From Eubacterium sp. (GTDB lineage: Bacteria > Bacillota > Clostridia > Lachnospirales > Lachnospiraceae), in the NCBI GenBank assembly GCA_024698585.1, contig JAILRB010000041.1, positions 1 to 46,341 on the forward strand: DNA of 46,341 bases, given 5' to 3'. A model generated the notes under the pieces. The model was not told where the DNA came from, ran no database searches, and saw nothing but the letters and a program-made list of their open reading frames with translations. Positions 40,256-43,720 of this stretch are shown here, one piece after another. A program made the position numbers and the translations under genes. Position 1 is the first letter of the stretch. The number at the start of each line of letters is the position of its first letter.

Positions 40256-41236
40256 TTGAAAACTTTATCAGAAGATATTAAAAGTGGAAATTTTAAGAAC
40301 GCATACTTGATTTGTGGAGAGGAAGAGTATCTGAAACTGAATTATAAAAGACAGATGATTCAGGCGATTGCCGGTACAGACACTATGAATCTTGCGATGT
40401 ATGAAGGCAAAGGTATTGATATCAATGAGGTGATTGACAGTGCAGATACAGCCCCTTTCTTTGCAGAACATAAATTGATCGTGATTGAAAATTCCGGATT
40501 GTTTAAAAGCGGTGGTGAAGAATTGGCAGAATATATGAAGCAGATTCCGGAAACTACGATTTTTCTCTTTGTGGAACAGGATGTGGATAAGAGAAGTAAA
40601 ATGTATAAGGCTGTGAAAAATGCAGGGTATATCTGTGAAATAGGAAGACAGACAGAAGCCACACTGGCTCAGTGGGCGGCAGGACTGTTTGCAGCAGACC
40701 AGAAACGAATCACAAAATCCACCATGTCCTATCTGATTGCCAATGTAGGAACGGACATGGAAGTTCTTTCCAGGGAAATTGATAAACTGATTAGTTATGC
40801 ATGGGATCGAAACACCATCACTGTGGAAGATATCGATGCTGTCTGTATTAAGCAGATTACTGTTCGAATCTTTGATATGATTGATGCAATATCGGTGAAG
40901 AATCAGAAGAAAACCTTGGACAGTTATTATGAATTAATTGCAGAAAAAGAGCCGCCTATGCGAATCCTTTTTATGATTGGAAGACAATTTAACCTGATGC
41001 TTCAGGCAAAGGACTTATCAGCCAGAGGAATGAGCAGGGGAGAAATTGCAAAGGCAATGGGGGTTCAGGATTTCATTGCAGGAAAGTGTATGAATCAGAG
41101 CCGGAACTTTTCGGGACGGGAATTGAAGATGGCACTGGCGGAAAGTGTAAAAACAGATGAAATGATTAAAAGTGGTGGCATCGATGAGAAAATCGGTGTG
41201 GAAATGCTATTGGTAAAATATAGTCAAAAAGGATAA
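40256..41236 (+). CDS. holA: DNA polymerase III delta subunit
   Basis: A 326-residue clamp-loader subunit that opens the sliding clamp. The N-terminal domain has the DnaA/YqeN-like block NAYLICGEEEYLKLNYK, and the collar domain lies near 200-326. It begins with TTG at 40256, supported by AAAGGAGA five bases upstream. comEC followed by holA and then rpsT is conserved Firmicutes order; here holA is followed by an inserted islet before rpsT. Confidence 0.93.
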   Translation: MKTLSEDIKSGNFKNAYLICGEEEYLKLNYKRQMIQAIAGTDTMNLAMYEGKGIDINEVIDSADTAPFFAEHKLIVIENSGLFKSGGEELAEYMKQIPETTIFLFVEQDVDKRSKMYKAVKNAGYICEIGRQTEATLAQWAAGLFAADQKRITKSTMSYLIANVGTDMEVLSREIDKLISYAWDRNTITVEDIDAVCIKQITVRIFDMIDAISVKNQKKTLDSYYELIAEKEPPMRILFMIGRQFNLMLQAKDLSARGMSRGEIAKAMGVQDFIAGKCMNQSRNFSGRELKMALAESVKTDEMIKSGGIDEKIGVEMLLVKYSQKG

Positions 41237-41262: not shown

Positions 41263-41463
41263 AAGAAACATATAGAGTATTTTATTCAACAGTTCTATTT
41301 TGATATTCAAAGTGGAGAAACACCAAAAGTTTTGGATTTCTTAAATAAGATGGTAGAAAGAGTTCCGTTTTATTTATTAGAGTGCGATATTTCTGAGGAA
41401 GCTGCAAGATGTAGCTTTGAAGCAATGACTGGAAAAGAATGGAGGAAACGGAATGAATATTAA
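41263..41463 (+). pseudogene. C-terminal remnant of an HprK/PEPCK-like kinase gene
   Basis: An open frame of 66 codons without a usable start: a stop lies at 41260-41262, and the first ATG is internal at 41350. The translation from EYFIQQFYFD through VPFYLLECDISEEAA to FEAMTGKEW reads like the C-terminal tail of the HPr-kinase/PEP-carboxykinase-like proteins that commonly precede PqqD genes in RiPP-type clusters. Its stop overlaps the PqqD gene start by 11 bases, as in an intact operon. The 5' part, including the ATP-binding P-loop, is missing, probably lost by deletion up to the holA stop. Family assignment is by eye only. Confidence 0.5.
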
Positions 41464-41719
41464 AGAAGGATTTTTAATTCGTGAAGTAGCAGGACAGGCT
41501 GTAATTATTCCAGATGGAGAAAAAAACGTAGAGTTTACCGGAATGATTAAACTGAATGAAACAGGAAAATTAATCTGGGAAGCTCTCGCAAATGGAGATT
41601 CCCAGGAGGCGATTGCTACAAAGATTGCAGACGAATATGGAATAACCAAGGATAAAGCTTTAGGAGATGTTCAGTCCTTTGTTATGAAAATGAAGGAAGA
41701 AGGTTTTATAGAAGAATGA
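41453..41719 (+). CDS. PqqD family peptide chaperone-like protein
   Basis: An 88-residue protein with the PqqD winged-helix-like fold: a two-strand start (FLIREVAGQAVIIPDG), then LNETGKLIWEALANG and a C-terminal helix ending in FVMKMKEEGFIEE. PqqD/RRE-type proteins hold the leader of a ribosomally made peptide and present it to modifying enzymes. GGAGG precedes the ATG, and the stop overlaps the next start (ATGA), so it is translationally coupled to the peptidase gene. No precursor peptide gene was recognised nearby. Confidence 0.85.
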   Translation: MNIKEGFLIREVAGQAVIIPDGEKNVEFTGMIKLNETGKLIWEALANGDSQEAIATKIADEYGITKDKALGDVQSFVMKMKEEGFIEE

Positions 41720-42147
41720 ATCAACCGGTAGACATAGAAGAATTTATAAAACAGAATGGTTTTTTTATGAATACGATTGTGGGAAGCAGTATGTATCCCA
41801 TGCTTCGGTCGAAACGAGACGCCGTTTTAATTCGTCCGTATGAGGGTCGATTGAAGAAATATGATGTTCCTCTTTATAAAGTGGGAGAGGAATATGTTTT
41901 GCATCGAATTATAAAGGTACTACCGGACTCCTATATTATTCGAGGGGATAATCGGATGGATAAAGAGTATGGAATTACAGATCAGGATATCTTAGGGGTG
42001 TTGACGTCCTTTTATCGACAAGAAAAACAGATCGGTGTTAAAGATTGGCGATATCAGATTTATGTACGAGTATGGCATCATGGTTTTCCGTTGAGGCTTT
42101 TGTATAAAAAGTGTAGAAGTGTTGCAGTAAAAAGAAGATTGAAATAA
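41716..42147 (+). CDS. S24/S26 family serine peptidase, SipW-like, without membrane anchor
   Basis: A 143-residue protein. IVGSSMYPML carries the probable nucleophile Ser25 (S-M-x-P). LHRII gives His63 in place of the usual general-base Lys, as in SipW/Sec11-type (Ser-His) signal peptidases. RGDN (76-79) is the conserved third box. No N-terminal or C-terminal membrane segment is visible, unlike signal peptidases, so it probably acts in the cytosol or as part of a complex. It overlaps the PqqD gene by 4 bases. A leader-peptide-cleaving role is inference. Confidence 0.8.
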   Translation: MNQPVDIEEFIKQNGFFMNTIVGSSMYPMLRSKRDAVLIRPYEGRLKKYDVPLYKVGEEYVLHRIIKVLPDSYIIRGDNRMDKEYGITDQDILGVLTSFYRQEKQIGVKDWRYQIYVRVWHHGFPLRLLYKKCRSVAVKRRLK

Positions 42148-42166
42148 CCGGACAAGAGGAATTGTT

Positions 42167-43420
42167 ATGGGGCAGGGGAATTGTGAAGTGAATGCAGAGT
42201 CAAAATTGAATATGGACAGAGAAACGATGGAAGCTTGCAAGTATATGCTTCACTTGATGAAATGTGCATTGAATGAAATGCCGGGAGAACTGAAACCGGA
42301 GCAATGCAGTTGGAAAAAAGTTTACGGCTTGATTTCAAAAAATAACGTTCAAGGACTGACCTATTATGCAGTACAATCGCTTACTGATGACATGCCGGAA
42401 CAGTTGGCAAAGATGTGGAAAACTTATCGGGATACTGTCATTTATAAGAAACTGATGATGGAAGAAGAACGAAATGCGATCCTTTCGGATTTGTGCTGGG
42501 AGAAAATTTCATTTCTGCTATTAAAAGGATGCAATATTGAAAAATATTATCCGAAGCCGGGAATGAGGGATATGGCAGACAATGATATTTTGTATGGCCG
42601 TGTGGAACAGGATGAAGATGGAATATATCACATTATTGGTAAAACGGAGGAAGAACGGGAACAGACGATTCGGGCAACCCAGAAAGTCTTACTTGATTAC
42701 ATGAAGAAAAGAGGGTATGAGACCTCGGGATTTTATGAGAAAGATGATGTTTGTAATAAAGGAGAATTCTACAGTTTTGAGATGCATCGAGATTTGATGG
42801 ATCCCGGAACGGAGTTATTAAAGTATTACAAAAATCCGTGGAAGAATGCCATTAAGAATGATGACTCAAACTATGAATATCATTTTTCGCCGGAGGATGA
42901 ATATCTTTTTTATATTGCGCATGAGTATAAGCATTATTCTTCCAGGGGATGTGGTGTCAGAAATCTGGCGGATTTTTATGTATTCCTACGGGAAGAAGAA
43001 AAGTCGTTGGATTGGGAATACATTAAAAAAGAACTGGAGATGATGAACTTAAGTGAATTTGAAGCGCAAATGAGAAGATTGGCGTTTGATGCCTTAAGTC
43101 CGAAGGGAGTTTTGGACGAGCAGGAGGAACAGACTCTTTACAATATGTGCCTAGATGGAACTTTCGGTCATTTTCGGACATCCTTGCAACGTCGAGTGAA
43201 AAATTATGAAAAAGAGGGAGAAGGGGTCAAGAAAGCGAAACGAAGATATTACTTTTATCGATTTTTCCCACCGGATGATTTTTATGAGAAACGATATCCG
43301 TTCTTTTATCGTCATAGACCATTGCGTCCATTGTTAACAGTTTATCGGACCGTAAAAGGATTGTTATTTCATAGAAAACATTTGAAAAAAGAAATGAAAG
43401 ATGTTTTAGATACAAAATAA
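42167..43420 (+). CDS. Nucleotidyltransferase family protein (PF14907 type)
   Basis: A 417-residue protein of the uncharacterised nucleotidyltransferase family. Its signature LLLKGCNIEKYYPKPGMRDMADNDILY (start about residue 116; key residues Lys, Arg and Asp-x-Asp) resembles the family pattern LLKG...R...D.D, with Asn in place of one expected acidic-spaced residue. The later IAHEYKHYSSRGCGVRNLADFYVF block is also conserved. The C-terminus is strongly basic. Members occur in lasso-peptide and other RiPP clusters and near polysaccharide loci; the reaction is not known to me. It starts 19 bp after the peptidase gene with AAGAGGA upstream and ends the islet. Confidence 0.82.
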   Translation: MGQGNCEVNAESKLNMDRETMEACKYMLHLMKCALNEMPGELKPEQCSWKKVYGLISKNNVQGLTYYAVQSLTDDMPEQLAKMWKTYRDTVIYKKLMMEEERNAILSDLCWEKISFLLLKGCNIEKYYPKPGMRDMADNDILYGRVEQDEDGIYHIIGKTEEEREQTIRATQKVLLDYMKKRGYETSGFYEKDDVCNKGEFYSFEMHRDLMDPGTELLKYYKNPWKNAIKNDDSNYEYHFSPEDEYLFYIAHEYKHYSSRGCGVRNLADFYVFLREEEKSLDWEYIKKELEMMNLSEFEAQMRRLAFDALSPKGVLDEQEEQTLYNMCLDGTFGHFRTSLQRRVKNYEKEGEGVKKAKRRYYFYRFFPPDDFYEKRYPFFYRHRPLRPLLTVYRTVKGLLFHRKHLKKEMKDVLDTK

Positions 43421-43446
43421 ACCACGCAGATGCGTGGTTTATTTTT
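43417..43446. terminator. Bidirectional terminator between the islet and rpsT
   Basis: Perfect 12-bp arms ATAAACCACGCA / TGCGTGGTTTAT around GA, followed by a T-run; it overlaps the stop of the nucleotidyltransferase gene and lies between convergent genes. Confidence 0.88.
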
Positions 43447-43456
43447 GTGCTTAAAA

Positions 43457-43720
43457 TTAAGCAATAGTATTAACTAATTTTGTTAATCTAGAAACTTTTC
43501 TAGCAACGTTGTTCTTGTGGTAAATACCCTTTGAACCAGCCATTTCGATAGCCTTTGTTGCAGCTGTTAAAGCTTCCTGTGCAGCTGCCTGATCTTTAGC
43601 AGCAACAGCAGCTTCTACTTTCTTGATAGCTGTCTTAACTGAAGATTTAACGCTCTTGTTTCTTTCGTACTTAGTTCTGTTAACTAAGATTCTTTTCTTT
43701 GCTGACTTAATGTTAGCCAT
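43457..43720 (-). CDS. rpsT: 30S ribosomal protein S20
   Basis: An 87-residue S20, a lysine/alanine-rich helical protein bound to the base of the 30S body. It begins MANIKSAKKRILVN and ends NVARKVSRLTKLVNTIA, both diagnostic. GGAGGTAG precedes the ATG. It is transcribed away from gpr from a strong promoter through a leader of about 109 bases with two hairpins. Confidence 0.97.
   Translation of the reverse strand: MANIKSAKKRILVNRTKYERNKSVKSSVKTAIKKVEAAVAAKDQAAAQEALTAATKAIEMAGSKGIYHKNNVARKVSRLTKLVNTIA

Follow-up and report, generated by a model that had tools for sequence, protein, structure and literature searches.

The islet between holA and rpsT in this Eubacterium genome is best read as the processing half of an RiPP system of the linear polyphosphorylated peptide (LPP) type, which would have been inserted between holA and its terminator, would then have lost most of its kinase gene together with its local precursor, and is probably still used in trans. 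We assign this reading a probability of about 0.58. The stretch of DNA analysed, referred to as the window (46,341 nucleotides), is contig C39 of a genome of 2.51 Mb in 65 contigs with an estimated completeness of 92.9%. This genome is designated G000 and its sister G008, and relatives of the same genus carry labels in the range G001 to G022. The LPP family was described from Paenibacillus alginolyticus DSM5050 (lppA-K-B-S-D-N; Nat Commun, May 2026; PMC13381572) and is defined by an archaeal-type signal-peptidase-like protease, a discrete RRE, an HprK-like kinase, an NTP transferase and an MsbA-like transporter, often in capsule loci. The islet and its flanks comprise the following features (window positions):

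40256..41236, + strand: holA, housekeeping gene of the left flank (PF21694, 5.8e-40; PF06144, 7.5e-12)
41263..41463, + strand: HprK-like kinase remnant (lppK-like), last 63 residues only, P-loop missing (alignment to the G002 kinase)
41453..41719, + strand: PqqD-type RRE (lppB-like), intact (PF05402, 2.8e-16; family profile; LppB leader-pocket residues)
41716..42147, + strand: putative leader peptidase, archaeal-type signal-peptidase-like (lppS-like), intact (Ser25/His63/Asp78; TIGR02228, 6.1e-4; family profile)
42167..43420, + strand: PF14907 nucleotidyltransferase-like protein (lppN-like), intact (PF14907, 7.1e-38)
43415..43444, no strand given: terminator-like hairpin, also at the empty holA-rpsT site of G002 (fold -17.1 kcal/mol)
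43457..43720, - strand: rpsT, right flank (PF01649, 5.1e-29)

The first-pass annotation had placed a broken HprK-like gene, a PqqD-like chaperone, a serine peptidase and a PF14907-type nucleotidyltransferase in this interval, and the ORF list and Pfam matches confirmed both the coordinates and the gene content. The tight coupling that it described is also present, with an ATGA overlap joining pqqD to the peptidase gene and 19 bp between the peptidase stop and the PF14907 start. The maturation genes are indeed RiPP-style, as judged from the PF05402 match of the RRE, which upholds its assignment to PqqD, the PF14907 match of the last gene and the family profile of the peptidase. The set goes beyond a chance association, since its order recurs in relatives and its frames are under purifying selection. 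Among the ORFs of the holA-rpsT interval, no MsbA-like exporter and no macrolactam cyclase were found, the latter search being confined to this site. The absence of a precursor from the site was likewise confirmed: a peptide profile had no YxxP match in C39, and a regex search of the window returned no precursor with a Shine-Dalgarno sequence.

To place the islet among relatives, we used a set of 23 genomes of the genus, 18 of which had a located holA. In 15 of these 18, holA and rpsT are direct neighbours without islet genes, and the islet is therefore considered an insertion. Only G000 and G008 carry it at the holA-rpsT junction; in G007 it adjoins rpsT, with holA at a contig end elsewhere in the assembly. 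The hairpin that ends the window islet sits directly 3′ of holA in G002, and the islet therefore entered between holA and its terminator. The folding energy of this hairpin corresponds to a z score of -5.3, with 0 of 200 shuffles as good, and a consensus terminator scan did not pick it up. A mobile-element origin was considered from two unannotated faecal phage records with 32% identical RREs and from a Ruminococcus albus megaplasmid on which a PF14907 protein of 31% identity is encoded amid polysaccharide genes, with no RRE annotated; neither explains the islet. Away from holA, G002 carries an intact form composed of two genes for YxxP-leader peptides (39 and 43 residues), a membrane protein (225 residues), the kinase, the RRE, the peptidase and the PF14907 gene, so that the set is not restricted to degenerate copies.

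The kinase stump is an open frame from 41263 to a stop at 41463, and its 63 residues align at 81% identity with the end of the G002 kinase (positions 190-252 of 253). According to the alignment, it begins downstream of the P-loop region of intact kinases, and the gene is thus broken as first proposed, only a C-terminal remnant being left. The HprK-like label stands in part: intact kinases of relatives match TIGR04249 and TIGR04352 weakly at the P-loop, under the cut-off, and have no Pfam kinase match, and the stump itself has no match in Pfam. The working kinase of an LPP cassette is therefore missing from the window, and intact copies are located elsewhere in the same genome, on contigs C2 and C3. 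In G008, the kinase is absent and the stump is gone as well. Both genomes have the same first bases after holA, followed by the stump in G000 and by none in G008, a pattern that suggests a shared first kinase loss. Two separate and recent losses of the kinase are also conceivable, which was counted against our preferred reading. A second site arrangement without a kinase exists in G021, where peptide, RRE and peptidase genes occur with no kinase gene between them.

A profile of 10 RRE sequences searched against solved structures returned TfuB1, PbaB1, TbiB1 and LppB first (2.2e-7 to 4.9e-6), the next match being at 0.014. Ubiquitin chains had come out on top of the single-sequence structure search (no passing stretch; LppB at E 0.4) and were dropped after the family profile put RREs first. 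Seven of the 13 LppB leader-pocket residues named in PMC13381572 are identical in the window RRE. LppB residues N33, Y60, D70 and F74 correspond to N35, Y62, D72 and F76, Asp70 of the Tyr pocket thus being kept as D72. At the sequence level, the window protein has the features of a discrete RRE with a YxxP-type leader pocket. In a tree of 51 RREs of the genus, which has few columns and many open forks, it falls within a clade of 14 (support 98/82). YxxP peptide genes adjoin 10 of these 14 RREs, in one case (G006) across a contig break; the remaining four are those of G000, G008 and G022, which have no adjoining peptide, and that of G007, which lies at a contig start and is not judgeable. Because relatives within this clade have both the kinase and the precursors, the window operon is described as having lost them. 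An LPP-type operon shorn of its kinase and local precursors describes the islet better than the proposed minimal or stand-alone system.

The assignment of the serine peptidase to family S26 is weak for the single sequence, with matches under curated cut-offs to PF00717 (0.0019) and to TIGR02228, the archaeal-type signal peptidase model (6.1e-4), but is sustained by the family: a profile of 11 aligned sequences reaches signal peptidase structures (best 9.4e-4), and Ser25, His63 and Asp78 are invariant in all 11. By sequence, it would thus qualify as the archaeal-type signal-peptidase-like protein with Ser, His and Asp that characterizes LPP cassettes. It resembles the SipW/SEC11-type signal peptidases in this triad and, by profile, in fold family, whereas it is a 143-residue protein without an apparent N-terminal membrane segment and is encoded beside an RRE. 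The PF14907 assignment of the third protein held up, and the window therefore contains the NTP transferase of the LPP definition. K120-G121 and D138/D140 are the same in all 10 relatives aligned. A 10-sequence profile reached no solved relative at E<=1, and single-sequence matches were all above 0.1. A structure model built from two sequences had a mean pLDDT of 39 and was set aside.

We then compared the remaining frames with those of the sister genome. For pqqD, 8.5 nonsynonymous and 6.5 synonymous changes correspond to a dN/dS of 0.31 (p 0.04), and constraint on this gene is only marginal. The ratio was 0.15 (p 0.005) for the first 44 codons of the peptidase gene, 0.10 (p 1.7e-5) for codons 105-417 of the PF14907 gene and 0.13 for its codons 7-104, which form a divergent patch; the controls holA, gpr and rpsT gave 0, 0.06 and 0.29, the last from two changes only. 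Relative to G002 and G007, dN/dS was 0.15-0.17 for pqqD and about 0.13 for the peptidase gene, and the PF14907 gene gave 0.12 against G002 and was saturated against G007. Between positions 42000 and 42475, a stretch spanning the end of the peptidase gene and the start of the PF14907 gene, identity to G008 is 63-76% inside flanks of 87-100%, and this patch looks like the result of recombination.

These ratios bear on whether the islet is instead a decaying relic, in which the three genes left over after insertion and loss of the kinase and precursors would have no job and be on their way out. Decay is favoured by the peptidase gene of G008, which is frame-broken in its assembly. The fate of the kinase, a stump here and wholly gone in the sister, points in the same direction, as does G007, where the membrane protein is frame-broken and the kinase is short by about 49 residues. 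However, the break in G008 lies in a region with a short A run and could be an assembly error. A dead relic is further disfavoured because the three remaining window frames are all intact, with dN/dS of 0.10-0.31 relative to a sister that also lacks the kinase, and well under 1 relative to G002 and G007 as well. We therefore consider decay the less likely reading and retain the reading of an LPP-type processing operon still in use.

The first-pass annotation had called the set an orphan and suggested a precursor encoded elsewhere. At the genome level the first description fails, for the genome has three RRE genes, three PF14907 genes over cut-off and three YxxP-leader peptide genes. The second is probably correct: a genome-wide search for leader-bearing short ORFs, using a profile of eight relatives' peptides, yielded three candidate YxxP precursor genes:

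C54:1123-1263, candidate YxxP precursor gene
C59:93101-93238, candidate YxxP precursor gene
C59:95542-95679, candidate YxxP precursor gene

The C54 peptide gene is followed by that of a membrane protein of 115-118 residues and then by the beginning of a gene for a large secreted protein, which runs off the contig, and each C59 peptide gene comes after a large secreted protein. Across 13 aligned peptides, the Tyr is invariant and the Pro nearly so, Ala replacing it in one G018 peptide. An enlarged precursor profile matched 21 of the 23 genus genomes at E<=0.1, several of which had contributed to the profile; at E<=1e-4, matches were obtained in 3 of 150 family genomes, our own included. The C54-type membrane protein was found in 1 of 299 family genomes, which is G000 itself.

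Over 1678 bases, DNA identity between the C54 module and a module of G002 reaches 94.3%, compared with only 82.3% for holA between G008 and G002. The module is closer between G000 and G002 than holA is, and sits at a different genome place in G002; it likely moves on its own by horizontal transfer, as judged from these identities. Four of the 23 genus genomes carry a close PF14907-bearing cassette of the islet type, and the same four carry a close C54-type membrane protein. This co-occurrence is weak evidence: the four genomes are closely related, with holA at 92-100% identity, and a distant C54-type protein (30%) also exists in G005, which is not among them. Modules made of a peptide, a membrane protein and a 913-residue secreted protein were observed at L082 1-1290 (G000:C54), L113, L114 and L115. 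Large secreted proteins with a common C-terminal stretch were observed at L081 6593-11680, L119, L124 and L127; directly downstream of each lies a gene whose peptide ends in WTGLY or WTGLF. In another genus, L189 2109-12886 (G047) combines Cps-like genes, a YxxP peptide, a membrane protein, a large secreted protein, and PF14907-like and signal-peptidase-like ORFs, a tail copy (see below) being not evident.

Two further cassettes are present in the genome. That of C2 encodes a kinase, an RRE, a peptidase and an ABC exporter (PF00664/PF00005), with no recognised peptide, and looks like a full LPP set minus that component; its neighbours, named by reading the translations, are presumably CpsB/Wzz/CpsD-like. 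Two adjacent ORFs beside this cassette (L004 7503-8379) have translations that we take to resemble barstar and a barnase-type ribonuclease. The C3 cassette encodes a kinase, an RRE and a peptidase.

In several genus relatives, the membrane protein or lipoprotein encoded beside the peptides repeats their last residues. Examples of copied tails are GFGPLIG and GFGPLIDG in G001, WGPLE for both peptides in G004, YGDLIG and YGELFG in G018, and IDWF for C54. Proteins with such copies in the linker and C-terminus are located as follows:

L061 1310-1987, membrane protein or lipoprotein with tail copies
L063 10049-10522, the same
L066 13166-13834, the same
L082 776-1132, the same
L123 5158-5688, the same
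L131 7915-8439, the same
L180 4777-5136, the same

When 17 peptide tails were compared with their own partner (500 shuffles each), 10 were beaten by at most 5 of 500 shuffles, a further 5 by 6-17 of 500, and 2 were unmatched (90 and 91 of 500). The true peptide-partner pairing of six groups was the best of 720 pairings, the G001, G004 and G016 groups being related and the groups of the pairing test hence not fully independent, and none of 20,000 random pairings reached the true score when ten sets were taken, three of them from other genera. Those three sets (G047, G073) had no match of their own, their scaffolds ranking 5, 6 and 3 of 10. For the C54 tail, the own partner ranks second behind the similar G005 protein, and a degenerate DNA pattern for a C59 tail partner found only the two peptide genes in G000. 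No description of tail copies in a membrane partner was found in the titles and abstract openings of the open-access papers searched.

We tentatively propose, as a possibility, that in LPP-type systems of this genus the outward linker of a membrane-anchored partner copies the mature C-terminal tails. The peptide, cut by the RRE and the signal-peptidase-type protease, would be a diffusible tag and the partner a membrane-held tag for a common surface reader, with the islet as a shared processing station for modules elsewhere. Under this dual-tag proposal, where two peptides exist, the partner would carry one internal and one terminal tail copy. Large secreted proteins encoded in these operons are perhaps the common reader of both tags. 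Should the copies prove to be genuine tags, they would give a first point of entry to the role of LPP-type peptides, which is stated as unknown in PMC13381572.

The matching tails of these membrane proteins, which are leaderless, could also indicate that the three islet proteins act on a substrate other than YxxP peptides, such as the tail of a protein or a target linked to exopolysaccharide. No precursor was found at the site, and, in the LPP operon, the peptide was not visibly altered by the PF14907 protein (PMC13381572). Nonetheless, the window RRE retains its leader pocket and most RREs of its clade adjoin YxxP peptide genes, making another substrate improbable.

For the preferred reading, LPP-type processing in trans, the following course can be envisaged. 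Read-through from holA to the conserved terminator would give a single transcript. The RRE, judging from its pocket and the leaders, would bind a YxxPxx[E/D] leader on a precursor of 37-48 residues supplied by another locus, the C54 candidate or the two C59 candidates being the likeliest, although the RRE of C2 or C3 could serve these leaders instead. A kinase of C2 or C3 may then phosphorylate the Ser just past the leader, unless this step has been dropped. By analogy with LppS, the Ser-His-Asp peptidase would dock on the RRE and cut off the leader, and, by analogy with PsmN, the PF14907 protein may modify the (phospho)peptide with a sugar or nucleotide, lppN deletion having caused no visible change in the LPP peptide (PMC13381572). 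In the LPP system, LppK phosphorylates Ser3 of the core and LppS and LppB remove the leader; the unphosphorylated precursor is cut poorly and kinase deletion leads to inefficient leader cleavage (PMC13381572). A kinase-less operon should therefore work poorly unless served in trans, which weighs against the preferred reading. These results would extend the LPP-type family, known from Paenibacillus, to a genus of Lachnospiraceae in which enzymes and precursors are split across the genome and one processing operon lacks its own kinase, and they name candidate precursor genes on C54 and C59 that are now available for testing.

Among known systems, the paeninodin and pseudomycoidin lasso clusters (PadeK/PsmK, PsmN) share with the islet an HprK-like kinase, a discrete RRE and a PF14907-like protein. 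A lasso peptide system with its cyclase elsewhere would account for the kinase and PF14907 genes, which occur in paeninodin-type clusters (PMC9266682 and PMC7533575), and for weak matches to the NCBIfam lasso PqqD models (1.7e-9, under cut-off). Unlike those clusters, however, the site has no cyclase and the RRE no W-type pocket residue, having Asp where PbaB1 has Gln at the Tyr/Trp pocket (PMC13381572). The genome (92.9% complete) has no match to the B2 peptidase family PF13471 at E<=1, a signal-peptidase-type protease standing in its place. The lasso reading was dropped on the lack of PF13471 and is highly improbable. The link to lasso and related clusters survives insofar as the families are known from them, but the closest system is LPP, whose leader peptidase is of the signal-peptidase type (PMC13381572). 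The islet differs from LPP in that its kinase is a stump, it has no transporter (one exporter being at C2) or precursor, and it sits in a housekeeping junction. No YxxPxVLxHQxIxFETxxS leader, as in LPP (PMC13381572), was found in the islet or within 5 kb of it, and the candidates in trans, with YxxPxxE..x[F/I/V][D/E]A-like leaders, differ in the second leader half. As in LPP, on the other hand, leaders of the YxxP type are found, here on peptides in trans, a polysaccharide context exists at C2, and the RRE, the signal-peptidase-like protein and the PF14907 protein follow a kinase gene placed directly before the RRE, in the same gene order (PMC13381572).
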